NCBI GenBank assembly: GCA_028293825.1
Contig: JAQGNY010000030.1
Location: 1-44,480 of the forward strand
Length of the DNA stretch: 44,480 nt
Source of the DNA: Verrucomicrobiaceae bacterium
GTDB lineage: Bacteria; Pseudomonadota; Gammaproteobacteria; Pseudomonadales; CAMLJR01
Direction of reading: 5' to 3'
Position numbers and translations under genes: made by a program. Positions 4,269 through 28,417 of this stretch are shown here, piece after piece. Position 1 is the first letter of the stretch, and each line of letters opens with the position of its first letter. The notes beneath the pieces were generated by a model. The model saw nothing but the letters and a program-made list of their open reading frames with translations, had not been told where the DNA came from and ran no database searches.

Positions 4269-4997
4269 ATGAATAAGCGTTCCGTTTTTCTTACCGCATT
4301 GCTTTCGGTTTCAACACTCGCTATCGCACAGCAAGCAGCCGCGCAAAGCGGCAATGCCCCAACCACGAATGCAACAACCACGCCTAACGCAGCAGCTAAG
4401 CCGCAACCACCACTGAGCTTTTTTATTACCAGTGAAGGAATCGGCAAAGTCGCTGATTTAGGCGGCTTGGTTGGGGCGGATAAACATTGCCAGCAGTTGG
4501 CAACTGCTGTGGGCAGCAAGAAAACCTGGCACGCGTATCTGAGCACCCAAGCAGCTGATGGCAAACCTGCAATCAATGCGCGTGATCGCATCGGCTCTGG
4601 ACCTTGGTACAACGCGGCCGGTGCAGCTGTCGCTAAAGATGTGGCCGACCTGCATGGCGATACGCTCGAGGCGGCACGGCTCGGCAACAATCTCAGCAGA
4701 CGCAGCGCGCTGACGGAAAAAAACGAGCTGGTTAAAAGTTCGACCGATACGCCCAATCAGCACGACATCCTGACTGGCTCAAAACCCGATGGCACCGCGT
4801 TTGCCGATGCCGCCGATCATACCTGCAGCAACTACACCAGCGGTGCGGCTGAAGGCTCGGCACAAGTAGGCCATTTCGATCGCACTGGCGGTGGCAACAC
4901 ATCATGGAATTCAGCACATCCCAGCAAAGGTTGCGGTCAGGAAAATCTCGTTAGCACCGGTGGTGCTGCTCTGCTTTATTGCTTCGCAATTAACTAA
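4269..4997 (+). CDS. Secreted lectin/endostatin-like fold protein
   Basis: A 242-residue exported protein with a signal peptide at about residues 1-25 (ending AAA), then a Thr/Asn/Ala/Pro-rich linker to about residue 48. The globular part has the pattern FFITS, GKVADLGGL, GADKHCQQLA, WHAYLST and NARDRIGSGPWYN. That pattern is characteristic of a bacterial family usually annotated lectin and related to C-type lectin/endostatin folds. Four Cys are in the mature part, presumably as disulfides. The ATG is preceded by AGGA at suitable distance. It is flanked by its own terminator and stands alone. No ligand can be deduced; the family assignment is from memory of the motif pattern. Confidence 0.65.
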   Translation: MNKRSVFLTALLSVSTLAIAQQAAAQSGNAPTTNATTTPNAAAKPQPPLSFFITSEGIGKVADLGGLVGADKHCQQLATAVGSKKTWHAYLSTQAADGKPAINARDRIGSGPWYNAAGAAVAKDVADLHGDTLEAARLGNNLSRRSALTEKNELVKSSTDTPNQHDILTGSKPDGTAFADAADHTCSNYTSGAAEGSAQVGHFDRTGGGNTSWNSAHPSKGCGQENLVSTGGAALLYCFAIN

Positions 4998-5350
4998 TTC
5001 GAATGCCCGCTTAAAAACAGTCCGCGCTAGCGGGCTGTTTCATCAACAAGCGACAAACAGAAATTGTGTTTGAAAAAGCAGTCTACTGTTGGCACCGCAA
5101 CAATTTGATCGTTGAGCAGCAGGTTCGGCACTTCATGTATTGGTATTAATTCATTGCCAAAAACTGGGGAGAACATTTTTTTTAAAAAAAATTTCAATAA
5201 AATAAAAATTATTTAATTATTAATGAACAACTTAAACCGATGCAAACGAGATATGGGCAACCAGTTATAACCTAATTCCTCTTTATTTTTCTATTTGGTC
5301 TTTCAATTGCAAATACCGCTCTTCTCGTTTAGCTCGGAGCCTTTAGCAAC
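4998..5350. other. Intergenic region before the first receptor gene
   Basis: Apart from the terminator at 5015-5040, this 353-base stretch has no coding signal. The part from about 5170 to 5225 is extremely A+T-rich (long runs of A and T) and probably holds the promoter and upstream activating region of the receptor gene at 5351. A GGAG lies at 5335-5338, slightly far (12 bases) from the ATG. Confidence 0.5.
5015..5040 (+). terminator. Terminator of the lectin-like gene
   Basis: An 11-bp stem with one G-T type mismatch (5015-5025 pairing with 5030-5040) around the tetraloop GCTA ends in TTT. It lies 18 bases after the stop codon of the lectin-like gene. Confidence 0.7.
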
Positions 5351-8143
5351 ATGAAAACTATAGAAATAACCCTTTCTTTACCGCGACAGCCGCGCGCTGA
5401 TAAAAGCTTTTTTAGGCTGTCGCCTATCGCTGCTTTTGTAACCGGTGTGACTCTATCGCTGGCGAACCCAGTGCATGCCGCCGATACACGTACTGCCGCT
5501 GAAATTCAATCGGAAGTCACTCGGTTAAAACAACAACTAGAACAGGAAGAACAAGCGCTGGCAGAGAAAACCAATACCTCAAGTCAAGCAAGTAAAACCC
5601 CTGAAAAAGCGAAACCTGAAGAAGCGACACAGCTGAATAAAGTAGTAGTGCGCGCACGTAATCGTATCGAACGTCTGCAAGATGTGCCGCTCTCTGTTTC
5701 CGTGGTAACCGGCAAAGAATTGGAACGTCTGCAAGCGCAGGATTTTGGTGCGATCACCAAACGCGCTGCGAATATTTCCTGGAACCAAGGCAACCAACGT
5801 ACAAGCTCTATTTCAATTCGCGGTATCGGTAAAGTCGGCCAAACCGAAGCACAAGATCCAAGCGTCGGAATTATCGTCGACGGCGTGAATTACGCGTATA
5901 ACCCGTTATCGTCCAGCTTCGATTTCACCGATGTTGAAGCGGTTGAAGTAACACGCGGCCCGCAGGGTACGTTGCAAGGCAAAAACTCCAGCCTCGGCGT
6001 CGTAAACATTATTACCAAGCGTCCGTCATTTACACCCAGCGCCGATTGGGCCTTGTCGTATGGTGAAAACGATACCGTACGTGCGCGCTTTGCTGGTGGC
6101 GGACCAGTGATCGAAGACTTACTAGCATGGCGTACCGCGTTAAGCGTCAGCAAAGGCCAGGGCGATCTTAAAAATCAATTCAATCCCGACAACACCTATC
6201 AAAACACCGATCGCGTATCTGGCCGGCTGCAATTTTTGTTGACGCCAAGCGAAGACTTTAGCGCTCGCCTTGCGCTCGACGCACAACCACGCGCCGGCGA
6301 AAACACTAACGACCGGATGTTCTTCACGCAAACACCAGCGACCTACTCGAACGGCTCCGAAGTAAAAATGTTCAACGATGCATCAGGTAAGCTGCAGCGA
6401 CGCTGGTTTACACAACAAACATCCTATACATATGCCGGAGATTATTTAGCTCAACGTATTAACAACGATTCGCAGGAACCGGTTACCACCGGTAGCAATG
6501 GCGCATCGCTGGAGCTGAACAAATCATTGGGCGATTACAATTTAGTGTCGATATCCGCTTACAAGGATTATCACTTCAACGCGCACAATAACGACGAAGG
6601 TACGCCGTTCGATATCCGCAGTAGCTCCGGCCAAACCATCGATTATCGTCAGTTCAGTCAGGAATTTCGCGTCAGTTCGCAAATCGAAAATCTGGTCGAC
6701 TGGCAGGCCGGTACATTCTTGATGAAAACGAGCACCAATATTCGCCGCAACGTAATTTATGGGGCAGATGCAGGTGCATGGTTCGCGACGGGGGGGCCGA
6801 CAGGTCAGTACGCGACGCTCGATACCGACAACAACGGTCGCTATTTAATGCAGAATTCATTAAACGGTGTGTGGAAAAACGAAAACCGCCAATACATCGA
6901 GAACGAAAGCGCAGCGATTTTCGGTCAGGCCAATTGGCACATCACCGACCCACTGACTGTGACCACCGGTCTACGCCTTTCCTATGAGCATCGTGAAAAC
7001 CCTGGCAGCAGTTTAATTTTCGATAATGGTTATGGTGCGGAGCTGAATCCTGCAAGTGTAAATAATGTGCAGTTAGGCGGCTTCGCTACTGATGCATCGG
7101 GCGCGTTAACCGCCGGTGCTAACTCTGCAGCACAACTTTCATTGGCTAACTCTGCGGCGAGCAAATACTTTGGCGTTGCCAATTATGGCTCGTTGAGCGC
7201 TGCTCAGTTAAAACAGATCGCAGCGGCTAAAGCGATTCGCGCATCGACCTTAGGTGTGTTGTGGAATTATGCCGAGCCAGAGCGATTTGAAGGCTTGTTG
7301 CCTGCATTTGTTATCAGTCCAAGCTACAAAATCAACGAGAACCTGACCAGCTATGTATCCTGGCAATACGGCGAAAAAGCGGGCGTTGCGCAACAGGTGA
7401 ACGGTAATTCGTACTTGGCCGATCCAGAAAAATCGAGCTCTTATGAACTTGGTTTAAAATCGGCACTGTTTGAAAACAAATTAATTTTAAACGCCGATAT
7501 ATTTTTGACCGATATCAAAAACTATCAGCAGGCAGTACAGGTTTTAGATCAATACACCACGAACCTGAAACACGATGGATCCCAGTATTTTACGTCGACG
7601 ACAGGCAATGCGAAAAAAGTCCAGGTTGATGGTCTGGAAATCGACGGTGTGTATGCGGGTATTCCAAATACCACGCTGCGTTTTTCAGGTGCTTATAATC
7701 ATGCTATTTATAAGGACTTCAAAAATTCACCACAACCGGTCGAAACCACTTATACCGGTGCGCCGGCAAATGCAGACCTGACCGGAGAAACGCTCGCAGG
7801 AGCGCCGAAATATACGTTTAATATCGGCGGTGATTACCATATTCCAGTATCACTTGGCATATTCGGGCAAAAGGAATTTCACACCGACTTCAACTGGGCA
7901 TTTACCAGTTCATATAATTCGGACGTTACTTTGTCGAGCTACGGTGGAATTCCGTCGTACAGTTTGGTTGATTATTCGATTGGCTTGAGTACGCTGGATC
8001 ATAAATTCGACGTGAATATCATCGTTAAAAATCTGTTCGACAACGATACTTACAACCAGGTCGGCACCACCACCGCAGCTTGGAACAGCTACAGTCCGGC
8101 AATTCCCCGCTGGGTCGGTATCGAGTTCTCCGGCAAGTTGTAA
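5351..8143 (+). CDS. TonB-dependent receptor 1 with N-terminal coiled coil
   Basis: A 930-residue outer membrane active transporter. The signal peptide is long (about residues 1-43, ending VHA). Next comes a short coiled coil (about 46-73), with hydrophobic residues at 52, 56, 59, 63 and 70. A Thr/Ser/Lys/Pro linker leads to a TonB box (LNKVVVRA, 95-102). The plug domain follows (VPLSVSVVTG, SISIRGIG, DPSVGIIVDGV, VEVTRGPQGT), then a 22-strand barrel ending EFSGKL. It lacks the usual C-terminal Phe. Blocks shared with the receptors at 8437 and 11373 include DAGAWFA, an NPASVNNVQLGGF-type block and a helical loop signature near residues 600-640. The substrate is unknown. It has its own terminator, so it is not in one transcript with receptor 2. 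Confidence 0.93.
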   Translation: MKTIEITLSLPRQPRADKSFFRLSPIAAFVTGVTLSLANPVHAADTRTAAEIQSEVTRLKQQLEQEEQALAEKTNTSSQASKTPEKAKPEEATQLNKVVVRARNRIERLQDVPLSVSVVTGKELERLQAQDFGAITKRAANISWNQGNQRTSSISIRGIGKVGQTEAQDPSVGIIVDGVNYAYNPLSSSFDFTDVEAVEVTRGPQGTLQGKNSSLGVVNIITKRPSFTPSADWALSYGENDTVRARFAGGGPVIEDLLAWRTALSVSKGQGDLKNQFNPDNTYQNTDRVSGRLQFLLTPSEDFSARLALDAQPRAGENTNDRMFFTQTPATYSNGSEVKMFNDASGKLQRRWFTQQTSYTYAGDYLAQRINNDSQEPVTTGSNGASLELNKSLGDYNLVSISAYKDYHFNAHNNDEGTPFDIRSSSGQTIDYRQFSQEFRVSSQIENLVDWQAGTFLMKTSTNIRRNVIYGADAGAWFATGGPTGQYATLDTDNNGRYLMQNSLNGVWKNENRQYIENESAAIFGQANWHITDPLTVTTGLRLSYEHRENPGSSLIFDNGYGAELNPASVNNVQLGGFATDASGALTAGANSAAQLSLANSAASKYFGVANYGSLSAAQLKQIAAAKAIRASTLGVLWNYAEPERFEGLLPAFVISPSYKINENLTSYVSWQYGEKAGVAQQVNGNSYLADPEKSSSYELGLKSALFENKLILNADIFLTDIKNYQQAVQVLDQYTTNLKHDGSQYFTSTTGNAKKVQVDGLEIDGVYAGIPNTTLRFSGAYNHAIYKDFKNSPQPVETTYTGAPANADLTGETLAGAPKYTFNIGGDYHIPVSLGIFGQKEFHTDFNWAFTSSYNSDVTLSSYGGIPSYSLVDYSIGLSTLDHKFDVNIIVKNLFDNDTYNQVGTTTAAWNSYSPAIPRWVGIEFSGKL

Positions 8144-8158
8144 TTTCCTGAAAAATAT

Positions 8159-8187
8159 AACCGGGGCCAAGTGCCCCGGTTTTTTTA
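8159..8187 (+). terminator. Terminator of receptor 1
   Basis: A perfect GC-rich stem (CCGGGGC / GCCCCGG) with a 5-base loop is followed by eight T. It starts 16 bases after the stop codon and is a textbook intrinsic terminator. Confidence 0.9.
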
Positions 8188-8436
8188 TCCAAAAAAATGC
8201 TCGAAAAATAGTACCGATAAAATCAATTTGAGTATCCCCTGTCCTCTAGCCAGCATATTTTTTGAAATTTCTTAGAGAAAATTAAGCGAAATAAGTAAAT
8301 AACTTTTTAAAAAATATTTAAATCAACGAGTTATATTTTTAAATAAAAAATACAAAGTATTAACCCTATTATTTTTAAATGGCATAACGATTGCGGATAG
8401 CCCATTGCTTTTAAATTTCAAACAGGGCTAGTTAGC

Positions 8437-11277
8437 ATGAATTCAAAAAACACAGAATTTTTAGACGCAACAAAAAAACAGCAATTACAAGCACGAAAAT
8501 TTAAACAAAAAACGCTTACCGCAATTATCGCCAGTCTCACCGTAATCGCCTCTGGTTACAGCTACGCTCAACAGAAAAGTGTCGATGAATTGCGCGCGGA
8601 AAGTTCGCGCCTGAAAGAGTTGTTGGAAAAAAATGAGCAACAGCTTAACGAGGCTGAAAAAAACCAACAATCGAATGCGGTGATTGCGGAAAAATCGGCC
8701 GCCGACACCAAACTCGGTCGAGTAGTCGTGCGTAGTGCGCGTACTCGCCTAGTAGCGGAGCACGACGTTCCGCAATCGTCTTCAGTGGTAACGGGTGTTG
8801 AACTCAATCGCGAATTAAGCCTTGATTTAGGTGCGATAACACGCCGCGCCTCTAACATTCAATTCAACCAAAACAATACGCGCGGCGGTTCGCTCTCCAT
8901 TCGCGGCTTGGGCAAACGCGCCTTTACCGAAACACAAGACCCCAGCGTTGGCCTGATCGTCGACAACGTTCCATACGGGCTGACTGAATTAGGAAATTTC
9001 GATTTTTACGATATCGATTCGGTCGATATTTTGCGCGGACCGCGCGGCACCGAAGGCGGGCTTAGCGCCAGCGCCGGTGTAGTAAACCTCAACACTAAGC
9101 GCCCCTCGTTCACACCGAGTTCGGATTTTCAATTGGTATACGGACAACGCGATGCAGTCATTGCGAAAGCAAACCTCGGCGGCACCGTAATCGATGATCT
9201 GCTCGCTTGGCGCGGTTCATTTATCGCCGATCATGGACGCGGCTTTTACTCAAGCGGCTATGACAGCAACAATAGTTTTTATAATCACAACCGCATTGCC
9301 GGGCGCGTGCAATTTTTATTAACGCCGACCAATGCTTTATCGGCGCGCTTAATTGTCGATTTGGAACCGAAAGCACCGCAATTGGAAAATGGCCTCACGC
9401 GCTTTCACGATCAGCCTTATCAATTTGCCAATGGCTTTTTGACCGATCCGAACGGCACCACGGCTCACGCGAAACTGGCCGGCTTTATCGACAAACTTGG
9501 ACCGACCGGTGTATTTACGCCGGGCCGCGATTTACTGCTCAATCGTACTTACGCGTCCAATCGCGCCATCAGCAATCCGTACACGCTGGCTGATTACAAC
9601 AGCAATCAATTATTGCAAAACGAAAACCAGGGTCAGACTGTATCCAATAAAGGCGCATCGCTTGAAGTCGATTACGACACCGGCGCCGGTTCACTCGCGT
9701 CGATTACCGCCTGGCATACATTCACATTCGACGCGCACAACGACGAAGGCACGCCATTCGATATCAGTAAAAACGGCGGTGGCGGTGTTTACTACAAACA
9801 ATACAGCCAGGAGTTTCGCTTCGATTCGAAAGTGGGCAACCTACTCGACTATCGCGTCGGCGCAATATTTTTAGGCACCGAAGATACGATTGAATCGAGA
9901 ACCGGCTGGGGCTCCGACGCCGGCGCATGGTTTGCTACTAATGCGCAATACACCACGCTGGAACGCATTGCCGGTACGAATCGCGGCTCTGGTATCGCGC
10001 TGTTGAGCGACTCGCTGAACGATGCTTACACCTACGGCGCGAGCTTAGTCGATACGTCGAGCAGTTCGGTGTACAGCAAACTCACCTGGCATTTAACAGA
10101 CCGCGCAAATGTCGATACGGGCTTGCGCTTCACGCACGAAAATCGCTCGACGAAAGACATCAAATATATCGCCGCTAATGGCACCGCGGCCAACCTTGAT
10201 CCTGTAGCCGTACGCGGCGTTGCCACCGGCGGGTTTGCCTCCGACGCGTCGGGCAAGCTGCTGACTACCAACACACCTTATCAATTAGCGCTTGCCGATG
10301 CCGTTGCGAAGAAATATTACGGCGTAGCGGATTACGCGGCGTTAAGCGACGGCCAAAAATCGCAGGTGGCGGCAGCGAAAGCATTGCGCGCCGGTCAACT
10401 TGGCGTGCTTAGCAATGGCATCACGAGCTATTACGACGATAATTTATTTACCGCGCTGGTGAGCCCAAGCTACAAAATAACCGATGACGAAACTGCCTAT
10501 GTGTCGTGGCAATACGGCGAAAAATCGGGCTCGGCACTTAACGTCAATTTCGCCAGCGCCAAAGTGAAGCCGGAAAAAACCAACTCGTTTGAACTCGGAT
10601 TGAAATCCAATTTGTTAAATCAGACGTTAATCCTCAACACCGATATCTACTACATGGATATCCGCGACTATCAATCGGCAGTGCGTGTGGTTGATGATTT
10701 CACTACCGCAACAAATATCGGAAATGGACAATTAATTCCTGTTGCCTATGTGACGGCGCAAGGCAACGTCAAACGCGTTAGCGGTAAAGGCTGGGAAAAC
10801 GATCTGTTCTATTCGGGAATTCCATTTACCACGTTGCGCGTCTCTGCCGCTTACACCGACGCGCATTATGTCGACTTCAAAAACGCAGCGTTCCCCGACG
10901 AGCAAGCGTATTTATCGACACCGGAAAAACCCTACACCGATCAAAGCGGAAAACAGTTACCCGGCGTTTCGCGTTGGACCGGTAATTTGAGTGCAGAATA
11001 CCGACATCCGATCTTCGACGATAAATCGTTTCATAGTAGCTTTAGCACCAACTTTTTTTCGCGCTACAACAACACCGACAATTTATCGGATTACGGCTGG
11101 CTTGGCGGCGGCTCGCAGAGCGATGCGTCCATCGGACTCACAACCAAAAGCGATTTCGATATCAGTCTGATTGCAAAAAATTTATTCGACAATCGCAAGC
11201 ATGAGACCGGCTGGAATAGCTATTCTCCCTACCCTTACCCGCGCTGGCTCGGAATCAGTTTGAGCGGAAAGCTCTAG
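8437..11277 (+). CDS. TonB-dependent receptor 2 with N-terminal coiled coil
   Basis: A 946-residue paralogue of the preceding receptor. The signal peptide covers about residues 1-44 (ending SYA). It is followed by a coiled coil whose Leu residues fall at 52, 59, 62/63 and 70, almost the same register as in receptor 1, and then a TonB box (LGRVVVRS, 93-100). Plug motifs include SLSIRGLG, DPSVGLIVDNV and VDILRGPRGT. The barrel carries the shared block DAGAWFATN and the helical loop signature KKYYGVADYAALS. It ends SLSGKL, without a terminal Phe. The upstream 290 bases are AT-rich and hold a separate promoter. The tandem arrangement with receptor 1 points to local duplication followed by divergence, mainly in the barrel loops. 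Confidence 0.93.
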   Translation: MNSKNTEFLDATKKQQLQARKFKQKTLTAIIASLTVIASGYSYAQQKSVDELRAESSRLKELLEKNEQQLNEAEKNQQSNAVIAEKSAADTKLGRVVVRSARTRLVAEHDVPQSSSVVTGVELNRELSLDLGAITRRASNIQFNQNNTRGGSLSIRGLGKRAFTETQDPSVGLIVDNVPYGLTELGNFDFYDIDSVDILRGPRGTEGGLSASAGVVNLNTKRPSFTPSSDFQLVYGQRDAVIAKANLGGTVIDDLLAWRGSFIADHGRGFYSSGYDSNNSFYNHNRIAGRVQFLLTPTNALSARLIVDLEPKAPQLENGLTRFHDQPYQFANGFLTDPNGTTAHAKLAGFIDKLGPTGVFTPGRDLLLNRTYASNRAISNPYTLADYNSNQLLQNENQGQTVSNKGASLEVDYDTGAGSLASITAWHTFTFDAHNDEGTPFDISKNGGGGVYYKQYSQEFRFDSKVGNLLDYRVGAIFLGTEDTIESRTGWGSDAGAWFATNAQYTTLERIAGTNRGSGIALLSDSLNDAYTYGASLVDTSSSSVYSKLTWHLTDRANVDTGLRFTHENRSTKDIKYIAANGTAANLDPVAVRGVATGGFASDASGKLLTTNTPYQLALADAVAKKYYGVADYAALSDGQKSQVAAAKALRAGQLGVLSNGITSYYDDNLFTALVSPSYKITDDETAYVSWQYGEKSGSALNVNFASAKVKPEKTNSFELGLKSNLLNQTLILNTDIYYMDIRDYQSAVRVVDDFTTATNIGNGQLIPVAYVTAQGNVKRVSGKGWENDLFYSGIPFTTLRVSAAYTDAHYVDFKNAAFPDEQAYLSTPEKPYTDQSGKQLPGVSRWTGNLSAEYRHPIFDDKSFHSSFSTNFFSRYNNTDNLSDYGWLGGGSQSDASIGLTTKSDFDISLIAKNLFDNRKHETGWNSYSPYPYPRWLGISLSGKL

Positions 11278-11315
11278 CAAAATGCGAAGTACAATTTCAA
11301 TTAGCACTGTTAAAT

Positions 11316-11352
11316 AAAAAAGGCGCGAATATTTTTTATTCGCGCCTTTTTT
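11316..11352. terminator. Bidirectional terminator between convergent receptors
   Basis: A long perfect stem (11316-11330 with 11338-11352) contains the core GGCGCG, with A6 on the left arm and T6 on the right. It lies between the stops of receptors 2 and 3 and can terminate transcription from both sides. Confidence 0.92.
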
Positions 11353-11372
11353 AATCCACTACATAAAATTAA

Positions 11373-14174
11373 CTACAGCTTAAATGTCGCCGTTGCTCCC
11401 ACCCAACGCGGATAGCTTGGAATAAACGTGTTCCAATTCGACAGATAACCATAATCAACATCGAACAAGTTCTTGACCACGAGATTCAGATCGAAAAACC
11501 CATCCTTGCGACCGAGGCCAACGCCAAAATCGGTCAATCCATACGAGTCGACCACCGCATAGCGCGATAGCGACGGATCGGCATTAAATTCACCTGTGTA
11601 GTGATAATTAATATTCGTGTGAGCTTCCCAGTTCTGTGAAATCGAATGAACAAATTCGCCGGAAAGATTGAACGTCAAACGCGGAGAGTTCGGCAACATT
11701 TTTCCGGTCGCATCGAAGTACGGAGTGCCGACGCCATCATTCAGCTCTGCCGGTTTCGCGAGGAACTCGAAATCCTTGTATCTGGCTTCGTTGTACGCGC
11801 CGGCAAAACGCAGTGTCGTAAATGGAATACCGGAATAACCGACATCCAATTCAAAACCCTTAATTTGAACCTTCGGCACATTACCCAAACCGGCGCTATA
11901 CGCCGCTCTATTATCAGCGTTAGCGATCGTTTGTGCTTCGTCATAAAAATACATCGACTGCTGAAAATCTTTGATGTTATTGACGAACACATCGGCATTG
12001 ATAACTAAGGTTCTATCCAGCAACACGGTTTTTAAACCGAGTTCGTAGGCATCGCTTTTTTCCGGTTTCACCAGCAACGATTTACCGCCATTGATAGTGG
12101 CACCGATAATCTGCGACCCGCCGGATTTTTCACCGTGACGCCACGACAGATAACCCGTGTAATTGTCATTGAATTTATAGCTGGGAATAATATTAAACGT
12201 CGGCAACACTTTATTGAACGATTCGGCATCGATGTTTTGATACAGCGTGCCAAGTTGCGCCAAGCGAATCGTCTTCGCATCCGCGACCTGACGCTTCTGC
12301 ACGGCGCTGAGTGCTGCGTAATTGGCCGCGCCAAAATATTTTTTTGCAACGCTATCGGCCAGCGCTAGTTGCTCGGCATTATTGATCGCGAGATTGCCAG
12401 TAGCATCGTTATTAAATCCGCCGAGCTGCACATTATTAACCGCTGCTGGATTTAGATCCGAGCCATAACCCTGATCGACAACAAAACTCTGCGAGTTATT
12501 ATCGTGGCGAATTTCCTGTGTCAGTCTCAGGCCGGTACTGACAGTGAACGGATCGGTGAAATGCCAGTTAATATTTCCGTATACCGCGGGACTGGTGCTG
12601 GTGAAATTATCGGTACGGCGAGTGATTAACCGCTCCAATGAATTTTGCATAATCACTTGCCCGCTGGTGGTCGTATCCAGGCGCGCGTACTGCGTGTCGT
12701 TGGCATAGTACGCGCCGGCGTCAGAGCCCTTCTCACCCGCTTCACTTTGATAATCGGAATCGGTCTTCAGGAAATATAAGCCCGCTTGGTAATCGATAAA
12801 ATTACCGAGCGGCGAATTGATGCGGAATTCCTGACTCAACTGGGTGTAGTCGACAATCGCGCAACTCGACCCGCGGCGATTGATATTAAACACCGTGACC
12901 TCTCCGTTTTCGCATTCCCATGTGTAGTTTTTGTAAGCAGAAATAGAAGTCAGCGTGAAATTATCGACATCCCACGTCAAATTAGCGGAAGCACCTTTGG
13001 TTCCAAAATTTGAACGCAGCTGAAGATTGCGATTGATTTCATCGGCCAGATAATCCGTGGTGTTGTAATTGGCTTCACGCGTAAACCAGCGCCGACTTAA
13101 TTTACCGACAGGTTGATTGGCCTGATTGACCGCTTTACCCGTATCGTAATAGTCGGGCGTCGCACGGTTGTAATTTAAATAGGTATCGGACAGCTCTCGA
13201 CCAACCGGCGCATAATCCAAACTGATGCGCGCGCTGAAATTGGTGGTGGGCGTCGCTAAAAATTGCAAACGTCCGTACGTTAAATCCCGGTTTTGATACG
13301 TGTAGTTTTTGTTGTAGATATTTTTATACGGGCCGTCTTCTTGGTCGCGATAAAACGTACCGCGCCACGCGAGCTTATCTTCGATAATCGGGCCGCCGAA
13401 CACTGCTTTGGTATCGAGCGTATTCCAATCGCCATAGGTGACCGAAGCCCAGGCTTCGGGTGTGAAGCTCGGTGATTTGGTGACGATATTAATTCCGCCT
13501 AAATTTGAGTTCTTACCGCCCAATGTTCCCAACGGACCGCGTGTCACTTCCACCGATTCCAGATCAATTAAATTAATGCCAGTCGCAAATGAAGGCGATG
13601 CGTAACTGACACCATCCGCCGTGATGCCCACGCTAGGATCGATGGCATCGCCTGACGCCACCGAGAGACCGACGCCACGAATCGCCAAACTGAATGTGCG
13701 CGGGTTACCGGGCGATTGGTTAACATTCCCCAACCGCTTCAAAATGCTCGGTAAGTTAACGGACTCTAATGCTTGTAATTCATCGCCACTAACGGCGGAA
13801 ATCGATAACGGCGTGTCTTGATAACCTTCTAATTCATTGCGACGCCGCGCTTTAACAACAACTTTCCCAAGACTAGTCGCCTCGTTTTTAGAACGCGCGG
13901 TCTCAGCGATGGGCTCCTGTATTTTAGTAGCGGAGGGCTGTGGTTCGGCGACCGTTTTACCGGATCGCAAGAACTCGACTTCTTGCTTCAAGCGAATAAC
14001 TTCAGCTTGCAACTCCGCGTTGGTCTTCGGATCATCGGCAGCATGCAATGGAGCGGACGCGAATACGGAAACGCCGCCAAGAATGCTAAGCGCGAGAGCC
14101 GATGGGCGAAGAGTTAGTGCACGCTGTCGTGCATTGAAATTAGAAATATTTAAACGATAAAATATATTGCTCAT
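11373..14174 (-). CDS. TonB-dependent receptor 3 with N-terminal coiled coil
   Basis: A 933-residue member of the same receptor subfamily, convergent with receptor 2. The signal peptide covers about residues 1-45 (ending LHA). The coiled coil has heptad positions L55, V59, L62, V66 and L69. An acidic, Pro-containing linker leads to the TonB box SLGKVVVKA. Plug motifs are LAIRGVG, DPSVGITADGV and VEVTRGPLGT. The barrel has the shared block SDAGAYYAN and the loop signature KKYFGAANYAALS, and ends TATFKL. It is transcribed divergently from the DUF6607-type gene, with 353 bases between them, so the two may share regulatory sequence. The substrate is unknown. Confidence 0.93.
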   Translation of the reverse strand: MSNIFYRLNISNFNARQRALTLRPSALALSILGGVSVFASAPLHAADDPKTNAELQAEVIRLKQEVEFLRSGKTVAEPQPSATKIQEPIAETARSKNEATSLGKVVVKARRRNELEGYQDTPLSISAVSGDELQALESVNLPSILKRLGNVNQSPGNPRTFSLAIRGVGLSVASGDAIDPSVGITADGVSYASPSFATGINLIDLESVEVTRGPLGTLGGKNSNLGGINIVTKSPSFTPEAWASVTYGDWNTLDTKAVFGGPIIEDKLAWRGTFYRDQEDGPYKNIYNKNYTYQNRDLTYGRLQFLATPTTNFSARISLDYAPVGRELSDTYLNYNRATPDYYDTGKAVNQANQPVGKLSRRWFTREANYNTTDYLADEINRNLQLRSNFGTKGASANLTWDVDNFTLTSISAYKNYTWECENGEVTVFNINRRGSSCAIVDYTQLSQEFRINSPLGNFIDYQAGLYFLKTDSDYQSEAGEKGSDAGAYYANDTQYARLDTTTSGQVIMQNSLERLITRRTDNFTSTSPAVYGNINWHFTDPFTVSTGLRLTQEIRHDNNSQSFVVDQGYGSDLNPAAVNNVQLGGFNNDATGNLAINNAEQLALADSVAKKYFGAANYAALSAVQKRQVADAKTIRLAQLGTLYQNIDAESFNKVLPTFNIIPSYKFNDNYTGYLSWRHGEKSGGSQIIGATINGGKSLLVKPEKSDAYELGLKTVLLDRTLVINADVFVNNIKDFQQSMYFYDEAQTIANADNRAAYSAGLGNVPKVQIKGFELDVGYSGIPFTTLRFAGAYNEARYKDFEFLAKPAELNDGVGTPYFDATGKMLPNSPRLTFNLSGEFVHSISQNWEAHTNINYHYTGEFNADPSLSRYAVVDSYGLTDFGVGLGRKDGFFDLNLVVKNLFDVDYGYLSNWNTFIPSYPRWVGATATFKL

Positions 14175-14527
14175 TATAATTCCTCAGGCATTAGCAAATA
14201 ACAAATTGCAATGCCTGATGGCAAAAAACACGCCATACATTTTTAAATAAAGTTATTCCTCCCCGTAGTTAAAAATCATCGTAAATAATGCATCAAATAA
14301 AAAATAGCACCCTTTAAACAAATTAAAATTTGTTAGAATCTTGCTGATTTAAAGGCACTAAAAAAACTATTGTTACTAACCTGCGTGCAATCGGTCAGTA
14401 TAAAAACTTACTACCTTTTCTGCTCAACAAGTATTTTTAGTTATCCAAAATTAACTCAGTGTGAGATAGCCGCTATTGAGCTCCATACTTGTTACCATAG
14501 TTAGAAATACATTCCAGGAGCGTGCCC
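14175..14527. other. Divergent promoter region between receptor 3 and the DUF6607-type gene
   Basis: About 350 AT-rich bases with no coding signal separate two divergent genes, so both promoters must lie here. A TTCCTCAGG stretch near 14180 supplies, on the minus strand, a GAGGAA ribosome binding site for receptor 3. ATTCCAGGAG at 14511-14520 serves the plus-strand gene. I see no clear operator palindrome. Confidence 0.5.
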
Positions 14528-15646
14528 ATGATCCGCAACACTATTTTCGCCGCGAGTATTTTCTTAGCGGCAAATATTACTTTCGCTGCCGATGCTGAAC
14601 AAACGCCAGCAGCGCAACGCTATACATTTTCTTGGTCGCTAACCGCAGATCAGGTAAAGCCACGCGGCGGTACTACTCATGGCGCTGACGTGACACTCGA
14701 TACCAGCGAGTCGCCGGCATGGATAGCGTTGCAAGAAGTGGGGATTAGTGACCTTGAACGCGATCGCCGCGCGATCCTGGCCATGGCTGGGACTTATCGT
14801 GTGACATTCGATTTCCTGGAAACCATTCCATTCGTGGCGCTCGACAAACCTAACGCACCGTATCAATCCTGGGGTACTGAAAAAATTTACGTCGATATCG
14901 ATGACGGCAAATTTATCAGCCTGCTGCATATCTTGGAAATGCACATGGTTGAAGCGGACGGTAAACCAAGTGAGCCTATTGTCGTTAAACACTGGCGGCA
15001 AGATTGGCGTTTTGAACCGAAAGATATTGTGGAGTATGTAGGCAATGATCGCTGGGCAAAACGCTCGTTAAATACGGAAAAAAATCTATGGTCGCAAACG
15101 GTTTATCAAGTTGACGAATCGCCACGTTACGCTGGTGTCGGTCGATGGGAACACAGCGCCGCATTTTCATCGTGGCTCAGTAACGATACTGCGCGCCCTC
15201 TGCCACGACGCGAATGGAGCGTGCGTAAGGATTATCAAGTTTTGCGCGGCACTAATCGCCACACCATCGTGCCGAGCGGATGGGTACAGGAAGAAAATAA
15301 TTTAAAGACCGTGCTTAACGCGCAGCGTCAACTCGATACGACTCGCCCTTATCTTGCTCGTGAATACGGTGTGGGTCGTTACGAGCGTATTCGCGATGAA
15401 GGCTTTGCGGAGGCAGATACTTATTTCGAGCGTACTCGAAGTTTCTGGAAAGAAGTCCGCACGACTTGGGCGGAAAAATTTAAAAAATACACATCGATTA
15501 CGTTACGCGGTCCCGTCGATCAACTGGGATTATTCGAACCATTGTTTACGCAAGCAGATCAGTTGGCGGAAAACCCTAGTGCGGGCGCCGAAAAGAATGC
15601 TGATGTGATTCACTCCGCATTGAGCAATATGGGCGCACCGAATTGA
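14528..15646 (+). CDS. DUF6607-type exported protein
   Basis: A 372-residue protein with a Sec signal peptide (about residues 1-21, ending TFA). I chose the ATG at 14528 over the GTG at 14522 because AGGAG at 14516-14520 is seven bases from the ATG but only one from the GTG. The mature part contains SWSLTADQVKPRGG, a DLERDRRAILAMAG motif, and Trp-rich segments (HWRQDWRFEP, YVGNDRW), which I recognise as the DUF6607 pattern. That family has no established function. It is predicted periplasmic, without further membrane segments. It is divergent from receptor 3, and its terminator is shared with the MBL-fold gene, which suggests a periplasmic accessory role to the receptors; this is inference. 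Confidence 0.65.
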   Translation: MIRNTIFAASIFLAANITFAADAEQTPAAQRYTFSWSLTADQVKPRGGTTHGADVTLDTSESPAWIALQEVGISDLERDRRAILAMAGTYRVTFDFLETIPFVALDKPNAPYQSWGTEKIYVDIDDGKFISLLHILEMHMVEADGKPSEPIVVKHWRQDWRFEPKDIVEYVGNDRWAKRSLNTEKNLWSQTVYQVDESPRYAGVGRWEHSAAFSSWLSNDTARPLPRREWSVRKDYQVLRGTNRHTIVPSGWVQEENNLKTVLNAQRQLDTTRPYLAREYGVGRYERIRDEGFAEADTYFERTRSFWKEVRTTWAEKFKKYTSITLRGPVDQLGLFEPLFTQADQLAENPSAGAEKNADVIHSALSNMGAPN

Positions 15647-15681
15647 TTCGGCTCTCGTTAATTAGTATTCATTAATCCAAA

Positions 15682-15708
15682 GAAAAAGGCGCATTAAGCG
15701 CCTTTTTC
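15682..15708. terminator. Bidirectional terminator
   Basis: A perfect 11-bp stem (GAAAAAGGCGC / GCGCCTTTTTC) with a 5-base loop lies between the convergent DUF6607-type and MBL-fold genes. T-rich sequence follows on both strands. Confidence 0.92.
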
Positions 15709-15733
15709 TTTTTTCAGATAAAACACCTTACTA

Positions 15734-17254
15734 TTAATTTGATGCCGTCTTTTCTCCAATCGCTTCCTGCAAATCGGCAAGCTTAACTACACCGGGTCCG
15801 TGCAATGCAGCAATCTGATTCACATCCAGTTTCAGGCGGCGAATATTGTCGTAAAGATTAACCGAGTAAGGATTTACTGAAGCCGGTCGTGGTGCATTGG
15901 CTGCCAGCGGTGTGTACGCATCGGCTTCGGATAATATTTTCTGCGCCGGCAAATAAACCAACGCGAAGGCATCGTCATGACCGCTGCCGGCAATCTGGTG
16001 CACTTCGATCGGACGCGCTGCATCTTTCAGTACATATTTATCGGTAAAGGTTTCGAACTTAGCTGGACGCTTGGAAGCGGCCAACCGATCGGGATTAATC
16101 GTGCGCGGCGCCGCCCAAATTTTTTCGTAATACGGTTTGTTGAGTTCGTGCGTGACGATTGTCGCGCCTTCATCGACATAGGTGCGCAGGCCGCCGGAAT
16201 GATCGAAGTGTTGATGCGTATTTATTAAATAGGTGATGGGTTTGCCGGGGATTAATTCTTTGGCTTTTGCAATAACAGCCGCAGAGCGCTCTTCGTTAAG
16301 CGGAGCCTCCACCACAACGATGTGATCTTGTTGATCGATTACTAGACTGTGGTGAGTGCCACCGCGCAAATAAAACACACCGGGCGCCAACTCCTCAGAA
16401 GCTACCACAACCTTCGGCGCTTCCGCTTGACTGATCTCCGCGGGCACAGGAATATCCGCGCCCACATTCGCTTTAACTGCCGCCACGTTTAAATCCAGTA
16501 CCGGATAGCCACCCTGCTTACGCAAAATATGCGCGGGAAATGAAACACCACCGAAATCTTTGTAATCGCTGTACGTGTACTCGATCAAGGTGTCACCCAA
16601 CACCGGCGTATCGATCCAGGTTTTAACTTGATCGATTTTATTCTTAGCATTAACCGAACCTTCGTAGTGAATTTTTCCCACGTTGAATTCAATCGTGGCG
16701 CCGCCACCCTCGATCGATTTCTGCGTCGCGTTATTGGCCAGCGCGGCTTTGATAAAGCCCTGCGGTGTAGTCCAAATTTCAGTAATGCGCTCATCCACTG
16801 CCGCCGGTTGTATTTGCGCGGTAGGCGCGGTGCCGGCTGGAGCACCTGCCGGTGGTGCGAGATTCCACGCCAATGCGCCGCTTACATATTGATCCGGCTT
16901 CTGCTCGACCGGAGCGGGTCGTACGCGGCCGGCCTCAATGGTTTGCAGTCGAGTGATCTGCACATGTGCCGCTGGATTTTCGTAATTTATTGTCGCTGTG
17001 TAATTACTCACATCAAATTGTGGCCATGCGGAAGTCGGGCTCGGCGCTTGTCCGAATTGATACCAATGACCGCTACCGGAAAACTCGATCGACTTTAATT
17101 CCGTGACGCTTAATGTCTTTGCCGACGCGTGTAATGCATCGCCATCGCGGCTGCATGCGGATATAACGGCAACCGCCGAAATTGCGGCAACAGCAAGCGC
17201 CAATCGGCGCACGACAAAATAGGGGTTTAGTGAAAAGCTATTTTTAGTGCTCAT
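15734..17254 (-). CDS. MBL-fold metallohydrolase lipoprotein
   Basis: A 506-residue exported protein. Residues 1-33 form a signal peptide ending in a lipobox (VISAC, Cys34), so it should be lipid-anchored. Residues 35 to about 280 form an N-terminal region of unknown function with a Pro/Ala-rich insert. The metallo-beta-lactamase domain follows, with all metal-binding motifs visible: THQHFDH (HxHxDH, near residue 350), GSGHDD, the Asp of SEAD, and LHGPG near the C-terminus. A dinuclear zinc or iron hydrolase is expected. It lies 46 bases downstream of the arylsulfotransferase gene, with a good ribosome binding site (AGAGGAAG), so the two form an operon. The substrate is unknown; a linked role on aryl sulfates or phenolic esters is speculation. 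Confidence 0.85.
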   Translation of the reverse strand: MSTKNSFSLNPYFVVRRLALAVAAISAVAVISACSRDGDALHASAKTLSVTELKSIEFSGSGHWYQFGQAPSPTSAWPQFDVSNYTATINYENPAAHVQITRLQTIEAGRVRPAPVEQKPDQYVSGALAWNLAPPAGAPAGTAPTAQIQPAAVDERITEIWTTPQGFIKAALANNATQKSIEGGGATIEFNVGKIHYEGSVNAKNKIDQVKTWIDTPVLGDTLIEYTYSDYKDFGGVSFPAHILRKQGGYPVLDLNVAAVKANVGADIPVPAEISQAEAPKVVVASEELAPGVFYLRGGTHHSLVIDQQDHIVVVEAPLNEERSAAVIAKAKELIPGKPITYLINTHQHFDHSGGLRTYVDEGATIVTHELNKPYYEKIWAAPRTINPDRLAASKRPAKFETFTDKYVLKDAARPIEVHQIAGSGHDDAFALVYLPAQKILSEADAYTPLAANAPRPASVNPYSVNLYDNIRRLKLDVNQIAALHGPGVVKLADLQEAIGEKTASN

Positions 17255-17300
17255 GTATTCTTCCTCTGAAAATAATTAATTACGCGAACGGGTTAAGTTG

Positions 17301-18722
17301 TCACTGCGTCGAAGAAAGGTGAAATTGATTTAACTCCGGTGGTATTACTGCTTTTTCTGAATGTGTTGTTCCGGCTGGCGCCCAGTCGTACGGCACGGGC
17401 TGGCCGCGATAGAGCTGGCGGTTGTAACTGGGGCGTCCATTGAGCGGATCTTTGCCGGCACGACCGTATGGATTTACGTACTCCCAAACAATTTCGCCTT
17501 CATGTGTTACTTGAAATAGACGGCCGCTTTGACCTTCATCAATAAACGTATTGCCATTCGGTAAGCGCCGTGCAGCACTGATATGCGTGCTGCGAAATGA
17601 CCAAGCCGGCCCACCGGAATCCTCACCGCTGTATTGCCATACAACTTCTTTTTTAATCGGATCGATTTCCAGCACGCGTGAGCCACCAGTAGTCGGCAAT
17701 ACCGCCGGCGGATATCCAGCCTGCCCCTGGTTATCGAATACCAATAAATTGCCGGCACCAGGTAAACCCTCGGGGATAATTTGCGCATCGTGTTGACCGG
17801 AAATTTGATCGACCGCTCGCGGCACTTTGCGGCGCTGTGCATTAGTTATCGGTGCGTAATTAGGGCCTAACGTCCATACGACCTTGCTGGTTTTTCTATC
17901 GATAATGGCGATGAAATTAGCATTACGCGCATCGAATAATAAGTTGTCCGGATGAAAGCGTTTATCGCCTGCGCTGTACCAACGGTTCTGTCCGACGACT
18001 TTCAAATTATTGACGTGCAGATAATCGGCTTCGTCCGATTCACGCACTAATTTTAATTGGTCAGCTGTAAAACCAAATTCTTCAAGATGGTCTGAGGCAA
18101 CCCATGTCCAAACCACTTCGCCTTTAGGATTTACTTCGTAAACAACATCGTCGAGCAACTGTGGCTGTTTAAAGCCGGCAACGGCATGAACCAAATTAGC
18201 CAGCACCACCGTATTACCGTTCGGCAAGCGCGCCCAATCGTGATGTTGTTGCGCCAAACCGCCTGGCGCTTTCTCGCCGAATGACCAAACCGTTTTACCG
18301 TCCCAATCGAGTTCACCAATTGTTTGTGCGACTGTCGCAGCGACTCGGCCGGGAATCAAATCCGTGCCGCGTCCGTCGACTGTGGAAAGCGTGACAAATA
18401 CATGCCCACGCTTGCCACCAATTAAATTCGGATTAATAAAAGTGCTATGTGCTGCAGCATCTTTCCATTCGTGCACGGTGTTCCCGTTTAAGTCGATTAA
18501 ACGAGCGACGTTATCGCCTCCGGTAAACAATACGAATGAGCTATAGGCTTTGGCCGGATCGTAAAACGTGGTGCCCGTCGGATAAACACTGGGGCCAGCA
18601 TGAGCTGCTAGCGCAGAAGTCAGCAATGCCACAGCACAAAATGTAAATTTCATGTTAAAAATATTATTCGCTAAATAATCTATTTTTTGTTTAGCTGAAA
18701 TTCTAATTTTTATCAGGCTCAT
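17301..18722 (-). CDS. Aryl-sulfate sulfotransferase family protein
   Basis: A 473-residue exported protein of the arylsulfotransferase (ASST) family, whose characterised members move sulfate between phenolic compounds in the periplasm without PAPS. Repeated beta-propeller blade motifs are visible (GNTVHEW, GELDWDGKTVWSF, GEVVWTW, KEVVWQYSG, GEIVWEYVNP). The conserved His motifs QQHHDWARLPNGN and SGQHDAQIIPEG match the family. The signal peptide is clear only from Met24 (start at 18653), but the ATG at 18722 has the better ribosome binding site (AAGAG), so I kept it; a long N-terminal extension would result. First gene of a two-gene operon with the MBL-fold lipoprotein. The 353 bases upstream carry its promoter. 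Confidence 0.82.
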   Translation of the reverse strand: MSLIKIRISAKQKIDYLANNIFNMKFTFCAVALLTSALAAHAGPSVYPTGTTFYDPAKAYSSFVLFTGGDNVARLIDLNGNTVHEWKDAAAHSTFINPNLIGGKRGHVFVTLSTVDGRGTDLIPGRVAATVAQTIGELDWDGKTVWSFGEKAPGGLAQQHHDWARLPNGNTVVLANLVHAVAGFKQPQLLDDVVYEVNPKGEVVWTWVASDHLEEFGFTADQLKLVRESDEADYLHVNNLKVVGQNRWYSAGDKRFHPDNLLFDARNANFIAIIDRKTSKVVWTLGPNYAPITNAQRRKVPRAVDQISGQHDAQIIPEGLPGAGNLLVFDNQGQAGYPPAVLPTTGGSRVLEIDPIKKEVVWQYSGEDSGGPAWSFRSTHISAARRLPNGNTFIDEGQSGRLFQVTHEGEIVWEYVNPYGRAGKDPLNGRPSYNRQLYRGQPVPYDWAPAGTTHSEKAVIPPELNQFHLSSTQ

Positions 18723-19075
18723 ATTTTTGTTCTCTTGCTGTTTATATTTTTAGTAGATACTTTTCTGTTTTTATTTTAGCAGTTAGCGTGCCAAATTTTA
18801 AAATTCAAAAATCACAGAAAATTTCGCTTAAAAGCCGATTTTTTGATTTAAAAATTAAATTTAATGCGCGGTAATTAGTTCGACGAAAATCAACGAGTGT
18901 GAGGTGTTGATATAGAGGCAGCCTGCGTGCACTCAACAGGAAATCCAACAGCTTTAGCGGACCAATTTATATCGGGTATTTTTAAAAAACCGGAGGGTAA
19001 ATCTCAAAGCGAGTATGTCGAGGAAGTTTAGAAGCGGCCTTAGACACAAAGTCTACGGGCCGCTCTACCAATCAA
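18723..19075. other. Intergenic region upstream of the arylsulfotransferase gene
   Basis: The region has no coding signal. The part nearest the arylsulfotransferase start is very AT-rich and probably its promoter. The distal end holds the hairpin at 19033-19064 that follows the CHRD gene. Confidence 0.5.
19033..19064 (-). terminator. Hairpin after the CHRD gene
   Basis: The outer stem AGCGGCC / GGCCGCT and inner stem TAGAC / GTCTA form a strong hairpin 12 bases after the CHRD stop codon. The T tract on the minus strand is weak, so termination efficiency is uncertain. Confidence 0.65.
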
Positions 19076-19504
19076 TTACGGTTTCAGTTGACCGCGAATT
19101 TCACCAGGCTTGTGTTCCGCGCTGTGAACATTCACATAGAGGTTGCCCGCTTTAAAGCTCGCGAATTGCTCATCGGTGAGTTTTGCATCGGCCGGTATAT
19201 TCCACACGCCATCGGCACCTTTCGTCAGCGTGATAACGGGTGGACCACTTTGCCCAACTGGCGCCAAGTGAATATGTGCAGCTGTGCCTTCAATCCCTGT
19301 GGTTTTAACTGTGCCGGAAACTGCATGATCCGCGGCAATTGTGAACTTAGCGCTGCCTGTTGCAGAGGTGACGACAGCCGGTGTTTCTTCAGCGCCGGTT
19401 AGTGTTACTTTAACGTCTTCGGCGAAAGCCGATCCAGCGACAGCAATAGCAGCTGCGGCGAACAGCGTACGAACTGCCTGTGTTTTAGAAAAGATACTTG
19501 TCAT
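19076..19504 (-). CDS. CHRD-domain exported protein
   Basis: A 142-residue protein with a Sec signal peptide (residues 1-28, ending AFA) and one CHRD domain. The domain shows LTGAEETPAV, GSAKFTI, a HIHLAPVGQSGP motif and NLYVNVHSAEHKPGEIRGQL. The paired His-containing strands are typical. CHRD is named from chordin; its bacterial members are small secreted proteins without a proven function, though the conserved His residues have prompted suggestions of metal binding. The start is supported by CGGAGAT upstream. It is monocistronic, followed by a hairpin, and lies between the arylsulfotransferase operon and the cytochrome/peroxiredoxin operon. Confidence 0.88.
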   Translation of the reverse strand: MTSIFSKTQAVRTLFAAAAIAVAGSAFAEDVKVTLTGAEETPAVVTSATGSAKFTIAADHAVSGTVKTTGIEGTAAHIHLAPVGQSGPPVITLTKGADGVWNIPADAKLTDEQFASFKAGNLYVNVHSAEHKPGEIRGQLKP

Positions 19505-19669
19505 TATTTATCTCCGAGATTTAAGTTATTCGAAATCGCCCGCTGTATTATCAGCTAACACGTTTACTTTTTCTAAAACCCTTTGGCTATTTGAATAGAT
19601 GAAATATCGAAGATAATACGGCCGGCTAAATCGGAGGTTTTTATTAAATTATTATTTCCGGTGAAGATA

Positions 19670-20347
19670 TCAGAGACCTGAAATATAAAAACACAGCGCT
19701 TCCAGTTCGCGTTCGCTCAACGATTTAGCGATCGTATTCATGACGCCTCCTGCGCTGTTGGTTCGCTCGCCCAGCGCCCAATTAACCATCTGTGCGCGCA
19801 AATATTTGCGATGCTGTCCACCGATAGCTGGATAAGCAACGCCGTTGGCCGCTTGCCCCTTGCCGCTGTTGCCGTGACAAGAGGCACACGGAAGAATATT
19901 TCGCTTCACATCGCCGTTAATAAATAGATTTTTAGCCAGCGCACTAGCGTCGATAGGCTCGCCATGCATTATCGGAATGCTGGAAAAATAAGCGGCAATA
20001 TCGGCTAAATTTGATTCAGGTAAATCCGCCGCCATCACACTCATGATTTCATGCTTGCGCGCACCGGATTTAAAATCGTTCAGTTGTTTGAAAATATACT
20101 CGGCGTGCTGCCCGGAGAGTTTTGGAATGACGGGATTATCGTTTATTTCTTCGCTATGACAACCCTGACAGCGCTCAACTTCGGCGAGGATTTTTCCGTT
20201 CTCGGCATTGCCGAGGAAGAATTGCGAAGGAGTTTTTTCCGCTGACTCGGCAGTCGCTGCTGAGGAATTATGCGCAAAGACTAACGCCGTGGAAATAAAG
20301 GCAATGTGGAAAAAAACAGCAATAAAATGTTTGAATAAAATGCGCAT
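19670..20347 (-). CDS. Dihaem cytochrome c4-like protein
   Basis: A 225-residue periplasmic or membrane-attached dihaem cytochrome. I placed the start at 20347, where a hydrophobic signal sequence begins (MRILFKHF and following); the frame stays open to 20422 but those 25 residues are Arg-rich and unlike a leader. No clear ribosome binding site is visible for any start. The first haem site is CQGCH and the second CASCH. Each is followed by the c4 pattern: PKLSGQHAEYIFKQLNDF with a Met-containing segment, then PAIGGQHRKYLRAQM. Such proteins carry electrons between bc1 or quinol-linked donors and terminal oxidases. It is the last gene of the operon cytochrome c'-peroxiredoxin-c4. Confidence 0.87.
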   Translation of the reverse strand: MRILFKHFIAVFFHIAFISTALVFAHNSSAATAESAEKTPSQFFLGNAENGKILAEVERCQGCHSEEINDNPVIPKLSGQHAEYIFKQLNDFKSGARKHEIMSVMAADLPESNLADIAAYFSSIPIMHGEPIDASALAKNLFINGDVKRNILPCASCHGNSGKGQAANGVAYPAIGGQHRKYLRAQMVNWALGERTNSAGGVMNTIAKSLSERELEALCFYISGL

Positions 20348-20427
20348 CCAAGCGACGTGCATTTTATATGACGCTATAAAACGAGCCGCGAGTCGTATGC
20401 GCAAGGCACACACGGCTCGCATTACCT

Positions 20428-21006
20428 TTATTTAGCAGCGACAAGTTTCTGTACTGCTTCAAGCGTTTTCTCAACGTTTTCAGCGGCAGCCAAACCACCG
20501 ATAGTTGCGGCAATTTTCCCGTTCGGCGTCACAATGAATGTCGTGCGCTCGGCAAAACCGTGATTAATATCGACACCACGCGCATCTTTTTTGCCGGCCG
20601 ATGCTTCGCGTACGGCAAGATCGTACGACTTAGCAATTTTGCCGTCAGCATCGGAAGCAACCGGTAATTTACCTGCGCAATATTGTGGGTCGGCAGAGAA
20701 ATCATTTAAGCGCTCGATGCTGTCGAGCGAAACACCGACGACAGTCGCGCCGGCAGCAGCGAATTTTTCGCTGTTTTCTGCAAACTCATGCGCCTGAATA
20801 TTGCAGCCGCCGGTATAGGCCGATGGATAAAAATAAACAACGACCGGGCCTTTTTTCAACGAATCTTTCAACGAAAAATTAAATGCCTTACCGGCCAACG
20901 ATGCCTGTGTTTTGAAATCAGGCGCGGTATCGCCTTCTTTCAACGCGGCAGTAGCGGGCAATGCAATGGCGCCCGACAACAAACATCCTATTAAGAATCG
21001 ATTCAT
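20428..21006 (-). CDS. Exported peroxiredoxin (AhpC/TSA family)
   Basis: A 192-residue thioredoxin-fold peroxidase. I chose the ATG at 21006 because AGGAG lies seven bases upstream and the protein then begins with a Sec signal peptide (about residues 1-21, ending ATAA). The upstream in-frame start at 21057 lacks both. The peroxidatic motif PSAYTGGC matches PxxxTxxC, with a second Cys in PQYCAGK as possible resolving residue. An Arg (FAERTTFIV) fits the conserved active-site Arg. An exported peroxiredoxin must receive electrons outside the cytoplasm. Its position between two cytochrome genes, with gaps of 51 and about 80 bases, suggests a periplasmic peroxide-defence unit; the electron route is inference. 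Confidence 0.87.
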   Translation of the reverse strand: MNRFLIGCLLSGAIALPATAALKEGDTAPDFKTQASLAGKAFNFSLKDSLKKGPVVVYFYPSAYTGGCNIQAHEFAENSEKFAAAGATVVGVSLDSIERLNDFSADPQYCAGKLPVASDADGKIAKSYDLAVREASAGKKDARGVDINHGFAERTTFIVTPNGKIAATIGGLAAAENVEKTLEAVQKLVAAK

Positions 21007-21057
21007 ACAGTAACTCCTGATTACATGAATTTTCTCGACGCAGTAGCGTAAACCCAA

Positions 21058-21453: not shown

Positions 21454-21612
21454 TCAGAACAAGACCTTTAAACAACGATAAAACGCTTAAGGAAAATCGC
21501 GCATTAAAATGATATTTACAGAAAACACTATTCACGGAAAACAGTTATTCACAGAAACTAAGCGCACCGATAACGGTGCGCTAAAAATCATACGGGGAAG
21601 ATACTACGCGCG

Positions 21613-21644
21613 ATAAAAAAACCCGAAAGATTTTCTTTCGGGTT
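21613..21644 (-). terminator. Terminator of the DUF1549/DUF1501 operon
   Basis: On the minus strand a perfect 11-bp stem (AACCCGAAAGA / TCTTTCGGGTT) with a 3-base loop is followed by a run of seven T. It lies 22 bases beyond the DUF1501 stop codon. Confidence 0.9.
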
Positions 21645-21666
21645 CTATATAACAACTAACTATTTA

Positions 21667-23109: not shown

Positions 23110-23146
23110 GATTCAGTTTCCTTTTCTAAAACGTGAAAGTTGAGAA

Positions 23147-26681: not shown

Positions 26682-26693
26682 TTAAAAAACCTC

Positions 26694-26736: not shown

Positions 26737-26778
26737 GTGCTCAACCGATATTCATCGAAAACAAAACTGAACCTAAAT

Positions 26779-28382: not shown

Positions 28383-28417
28383 TAATTTTTATAGCTTGAT
28401 CGGATACGTTGTGAAAT

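Follow-up and report, generated by a model that had tools for sequence, protein, structure and literature searches.

Periplasmic coiled coils occur on the outer-membrane proteins DcaP, ScrY, and FapF, which belong to other barrel families than the TonB-dependent receptors and are not known to have a TonB box; FapF is trimeric, and these coils are N-terminally placed. Passages of one paper describe trimeric, glutamine-rich periplasmic coiled coils for DcaP and ScrY, suggest that they guide toward a component of the inner membrane, and report such domains with Q-layers in FapF homologues (PMC6173795). Among the matches listed in a search of open-licence papers, none described a coiled coil ahead of a TonB box. 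The tail module reported here is real and conserved, resides on a known kind of receptor, and is undescribed in the open-licence papers listed.

Architecture of three receptors with a heptad tail

The window analyzed (44,480 nucleotides) is the whole of contig C5 in a source genome of 4.34 Mb and 56 contigs. Open reading frames and Pfam matches identify three receptors: W1 (930 aa, positions 5351..8143, forward strand), W2 (946 aa, 8437..11277, forward strand), and W3 (933 aa, 11373..14174, reverse strand). They match Pfam Plug (E values of 1.5e-17, 2e-13, and 2.8e-11) and TonB_dep_Rec_b-barrel (1.6e-27, 5.8e-17, and 1.6e-28) and, by these sequence matches, are TonB-dependent receptors with predicted TonB-driven import. 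The AlphaFold2 models of W1 and W3 contain many barrel strands, as an overall impression rather than a strand-by-strand count. All three share the order of signal peptide (assigned by inspection), heptad helix, linker, TonB box, plug, and barrel.

The sequence-only reading had placed a heptad segment behind the signal peptide of each receptor, and its core residues are present at exactly the positions named: I52, V56, L59, L63, and L70 in W1; L52, L59, L63, and L70 in W2, with S56 and N66 at intervening core positions; and L55, V59, L62, V66, and L69 in W3. The linker that it described, and the L-x-x-VVV-x-A/S box that follows, were likewise recovered. This TonB-box pattern (LxxVVVx[AS]) lies ahead of the plug in all three, as LNKVVVRA in W1 (5633..5656, forward strand), LGRVVVRS in W2 (8713..8736, forward strand), and LGKVVVKA in W3 (13848..13871, reverse strand), and the box columns, 283 to 290, are conserved in the family alignment. 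The plug domain of W1 is at 5675..6001 (forward strand; Pfam Plug). The segment had also been distinguished from the STN signaling domain, in agreement with Pfam, which returns Plug and barrel and no STN match in W1, W2, or W3 at an E value of ≤1. No other known N-terminal domain matched the tail above the curated Pfam cut-off either; a sub-cut-off match of CENP-Q to the W2 helix (E = 0.0021) was taken as a generic coiled-coil match.

Disorder of the segment had been foreseen as the outcome that would speak against a coil; AlphaFold2 instead predicts a helix in W1 and, with low confidence, in W3. In the model of mature W1 (66-row alignment, mean pLDDT of 89.3), the helix spans mature residues 6 to 31, corresponding to W1 residues 49 to 74 (5495..5572, forward strand) and to the heptad columns, and the 10-residue blocks of mature residues 1 to 30 have pLDDT values of 57, 85, and 75. 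Values below 50 at mature residues 32 to 60 take in the disordered linker (residues 75 to 94; 5573..5632, forward strand) and the TonB box, followed by the plug and barrel. Mature W3 (50 rows, mean pLDDT of 86.7) has its helix at mature residues 7 to 25 (residues 52 to 70; 13965..14021, reverse strand), with block values of 51, 68, and 46 for mature residues 1 to 30, and is disordered (pLDDT of <50) at mature residues 26 to 64, again including the TonB box; its linker occupies residues 71 to 101 (13872..13964, reverse strand). The structure models cover W1 and W3, and the W2 segment (approximately residues 49 to 74; 8581..8658, forward strand) is known from sequence and from alignment with W1 and W3, being weak alone.

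Taken singly, the tails of W1 (P = 0.005) and W3 (P = 0.01) show a heptad core and that of W2 (P = 0.145) does not, when a simple a/d score is compared with 200 shuffles of each tail. Five of the eight family receptors of the source genome reach a P of ≤0.05, the other three having values of 0.145, 0.055, and 0.055. In a second scoring, the best W2 window fell inside the signal peptide, and W2 was therefore labeled as coil bearing by eye.

Conservation and geometry of the coil in the receptor family

Of 52 Plug matches in the source genome, eight constitute the family: three in the window, a tandem set of four on contig C33, and a single receptor on C17. The other seven members are 38 to 53% identical to W3, and the shared tail therefore reflects descent. 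All eight bear the coil, versus 1 of the 44 other Plug receptors (C7:10105, score of 0.92). The label required a score of ≥0.8, with two exceptions made by eye, W2 and C33:12339 (0.72), because both hold the core L-x-x-[ED]-x-x-R-L-[KR]; L067, whose score of 0.72 comes from a stretch lacking this core, was kept as having none.

A profile of the eight receptors, which finds those eight by construction, returned no ninth member in the source genome at an E value of ≤1e-60 (24 of 65 candidates scored), no member in 36 further genomes from the genus or order (up to 24 candidates scored in each), and one partial match besides the source genome in a class sample of 369 genomes (up to 2 candidates scored in each). 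A heptad profile of the segment itself (32 columns, 12 rows, seven of them own receptors that match by construction) added the eighth family receptor, C17, at an E value of 5.7e-5, and nothing else in this genome fell below 0.028. With C17 as the sole addition and the next E value at ≥0.028, the coil was rejected as a general secreted module of the source genome.

Two other stretches of this genome were inspected. The four tandem receptors lie at 5799-17879 of L052 (C33), with a coil on each; upstream are frames that resemble, by eye, cytochrome bd-type oxidase genes, and after the receptors come, on the opposite strand, genes for a HEAT-repeat protein and an ABC ATPase. L055 (contig C7) encodes, at 4300-6735, the other coil-bearing receptor, a non-family protein in which a heptad tail of a different make precedes the TonB box. 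No relative of this receptor was found in a class sample of 229 genomes (up to 4 candidates scored in each), and its 8 matches listed from 1,893 plasmid records all align from residue 91 or later.

Relatives were collected by a scan of named genomes, keyed to two conserved peptides, with the family alignment; an earlier single-protein scan of the same genome contigs had returned no relative. The best 80 of 138 relatives were kept, and the frequencies given here therefore apply to that set. The scan yielded 77 loci, mostly from Beta- and Gammaproteobacteria, with some rankless bins and two from Sphingomonas. Their reading frames provided 100 homologues; after removal of five that were short or cut, the remaining 95 and the eight own receptors make up 103 rows. 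The coil is present in 76 of these 103 rows (two of the 76 by eye).

The lack of heptad conservation among relatives had been named in advance as grounds for abandoning the proposal; the heptads proved to be conserved. The helix columns are covered by 84 rows, and when columns were permuted 100,000 times, a single permutation equaled the best heptad register. Information averages 2.39 bits across 15 central helix columns that we chose; the signal peptide (1.67 bits) and the linker (1.56) lie below this value, and the TonB box (2.79) and the plug start (2.80) lie above it. The linker is 31% alanine and 14% proline, and 25 to 62 residues (median, 36) separate the leucine of the TonB box from the third conserved a position. 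What had been noticed as a feature shared by three receptors does occur in all three; judged from the alignment, it is a trait of the whole receptor family (8 of 8 own receptors and 76 of 103 rows), held by descent, and not one of these three in particular.

Length variation within the helix proceeds in whole heptads. A single gap inside the helix has length differences of 0 (54 rows), 7 (21 rows), and 14 (1 row), with no other lengths, such that all 22 in-helix variants among the 76 coil rows amount to 7 or 14 residues, and these length states require at least 10 changes on the tree. The gap lengths come from a MAFFT alignment, which may be biased toward self-similar slips; the ends of the helix are freely variable. 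Glutamate at g faces lysine or arginine at the next e: of 228 g-to-e' pairs, 85 are attractive and 1 is repulsive, although this count is burdened by shared descent because most attractive pairs must derive from one layer (columns 168 E and 187 K/R). The other six i-to-i+5 phases contain 0 to 5 attractive pairs each, and a crude antiparallel sum (g-g and e-e) is unfavorable.

Heptad phase, whole-heptad length steps, and g-e' charges together form the signature of a parallel coiled coil, and the sequence pattern is that of a parallel, in-register one. In the core, leucine occupies d in 70 of 76 and 76 of 76 rows at the two best layers; the middle a position is I in 30, N in 17, L in 15, and V in 12 of 76 rows, 21 of the 76 have asparagine in one of two a layers, and the last d layer holds Q (17), L (16), S (12), or A (10). 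Leucine at d combined with I, N, L, or V at a, and asparagine in an a layer, is a makeup tied to parallel dimers, and by such rules for a and d residues the coil would be a dimer rather than a trimer.

With a heptad core, whole-heptad indels, and complementary g-e' charges all present at the family level, the tail segment is probably a genuine coiled-coil former. The original claim is thus upheld in part, for a conserved helix of the coiled-coil type, distinct from STN and followed by a disordered linker before the TonB box, with receptor multimerization or partner binding as putative roles, and is tempered by the low confidence of the W3 helix and the weakness of W2 alone. Chance amphipathicity in a low-complexity tail would accord with the P value of W2 alone (0.145), with those of two more own members (0.055), and with repeated change on the tree, but the heptad permutation, charge, and gap-length statistics of the family make it very unlikely.

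The helix begins close behind the signal peptide, its first core leucine being 7 to 9 residues away in 63 of 76 rows and 10 to 19 in the remainder. This placement would suit a structural spacer or biogenesis aid, in which the helix is a folded stop against pull-through or helps in export or with chaperones. Such a spacer needs neither whole-heptad length steps nor g-e' charge pairing, and we consider this role improbable.

Distribution of the coil and its possible partners

A conserved coil in most of the relatives compared suggests that the receptors are tied together or are docked from inside. We put the probability that they pair with each other through the tail coil, a self-association argued from the coil pattern, at roughly 50%. 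In this reading, which we favor, a short parallel coiled coil of about 3 to 5 heptads at the receptor N-terminus would pair the periplasmic tails of two (possibly three) family receptors, and the disordered linker would leave each TonB box free. At least two TonB boxes would thereby stay where a single TonB/ExbB/ExbD motor can reach them, and the receptors would be kept together in the outer membrane; pairing might in this way benefit TonB coupling. The shortness of the helix and the mixture of Q, L, S, and A in its last d layer count against this reading, as do the low confidence of the W3 helix, the weakness of W2 alone, and the absence of the coil from distant receptors.

The helix might instead be a docking site for another periplasmic protein, either a part of the TonB system or an envelope protein, an alternative that we regard as possible though doubtful. 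Surface positions are conserved in addition to the core (glutamate at c and g, arginine at c), as docking would predict, and the distribution of the coil bears on the same question. On a FastTree phylogeny built without the tail columns, with a warning for long branches, coil presence requires at least 13 changes (shuffled mean, 24.0; 0 of 500 shuffles as low). Rows with the coil are found to either side of the midpoint root as drawn, and four distant receptors (27 to 30% identity) have no coil and a short tail before the TonB box. The coil probably arose with this receptor family and was then often lost, although change counts alone do not separate gain from loss. So many changes imply that the coil is often dispensable, which speaks against a general need for it.

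The coil is absent from all 8 named Cellvibrionaceae rows, and from all 13 when bin C7_D7_9 is counted as Cellvibrionaceae by its tree position, against 76 of 90 other rows. In four Cellvibrionaceae genomes, none of 15 receptors (matched at an E value of ≤1e-60, tails judged by score and eye) has the heptad module, which likewise speaks against a general need; the 15 include a distant family member (L199) and a receptor with a shorter amphipathic stretch scoring 0.72 (L193). The Cellvibrionaceae rows are spread over several distinct clades, and parallel loss in a single host lineage would fit the loss of a shared docking partner; a host-wide partner is a possible cause. Tree-independent pairs agree if C7_D7_9 is included (6 in the same direction, 0 in the other, and 2 without difference; P = 0.031), but restricting the comparison to rows from named Cellvibrionaceae leaves 7 pairs, of which only 2 differ (P = 0.5). 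Moreover, Derxia lacustris has both coil-bearing and coil-less receptors within one genome, and the coil does not follow linked TonB or ExbB genes, which stand beside coil-less receptors in L110 (TonB and ExbB) and L111 (ExbB). The Cellvibrionaceae stretches L188 to L202 have other tails in place of the heptad module; an acidic tail bearing a GGKR motif is common to L191 and L198, and a similar one that ends in AAGR occurs in L190 and L193.

Gene neighborhoods were compared over 80 stretches (the 77 loci, the window, L052, and L054) by loose clustering of mechanical reading frames, in which at least one cluster, number 4, is made up of opposite-strand frames over receptor genes. Recurrent neighbors, with the window counted, are PSCyt2/PSD1 (30 stretches), DUF1501 (22), DsbD-like proteins (13), ExbB (12), TonB (12), cytochrome b561 (11), peroxiredoxin-like proteins (11, by eye), arylsulfotransferase (8), and sulfatase (6). 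The window has an island of periplasmic redox/sulphur-type genes at 14522-33241, comprising an arylsulfotransferase, DUF6607, DUF1501, PSCyt2/PSD1, a metallo-beta-lactamase fold, a solute-binding protein, and, by clustering with L112, cytochrome b561, together with TonB (32432-33241) and ExbB (31690-32418); two sulphur-transport proteins are encoded in the window as well. Several of these genes have relatives next to homologous receptors in other loci. As a guess from these neighbors, the receptors may import organic sulphur compounds. Two distant plasmid receptors (L143, 779-6346; L142, 1910-6655) also lie beside possible sulphur genes, that of Methylosinus adjoining an encapsulin-associated cysteine desulfurase and that of Acinetobacter a substrate-binding protein and an LLM-class flavin oxidoreductase.

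The coil was also considered as a tracker of gene neighbors and was rejected in this role, no cluster being significant among the tree-independent pairs listed. It occurs in 0 of 9 rows with an arylsulfotransferase in the locus versus 68 of 86 without, and in 0 of 8 rows with a sulfatase versus 68 of 87 without; many of these rows are Cellvibrionaceae, and the window receptors have coil and arylsulfotransferase together.

Self-pairing could extend to different receptors of one cell. The eight own receptors share register and charge pattern, and their pairwise charge scores are all zero or positive, such that mixed pairs, and assemblies for different substrates, could form. That such mixed, partly tandem-encoded assemblies share one TonB motor is a speculative and rather unlikely extension; if true, coil pairing would build a combinatorial array of receptors beneath the outer membrane. 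To our knowledge, how many receptors a TonB molecule serves, and how receptors are organized in the membrane, is an open question. A natural, removable coil by the TonB box that some relatives have and others lack makes the question of receptor organization testable.

Comparison with known receptors and coils

W1, W2, and W3 share the TonB box, plug, and barrel of typical TonB-dependent receptors but differ from them in the coiled-coil tail and long linker before the box. In 17 solved relatives (E value of ≤1e-10), the best matched stretches start no earlier than profile position 59, beyond the helix, and none of the 17 therefore covers it. STN transducers likewise have an N-terminal extension before the TonB box, but the STN domain is absent here. 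As far as the passages cited at the outset describe them, DcaP, ScrY, and FapF are the nearest precedent, with a periplasmic heptad coil on an outer-membrane barrel as in this family. The trimeric porin coils combine a Q-rich core with a porin barrel: the core of ScrY and DcaP is glutamine-rich in those passages, whereas the core of the W1-W3 family has L at d and I, N, L, or V at a, with Q at the last d layer only, and its barrel is TonB_dep_Rec.
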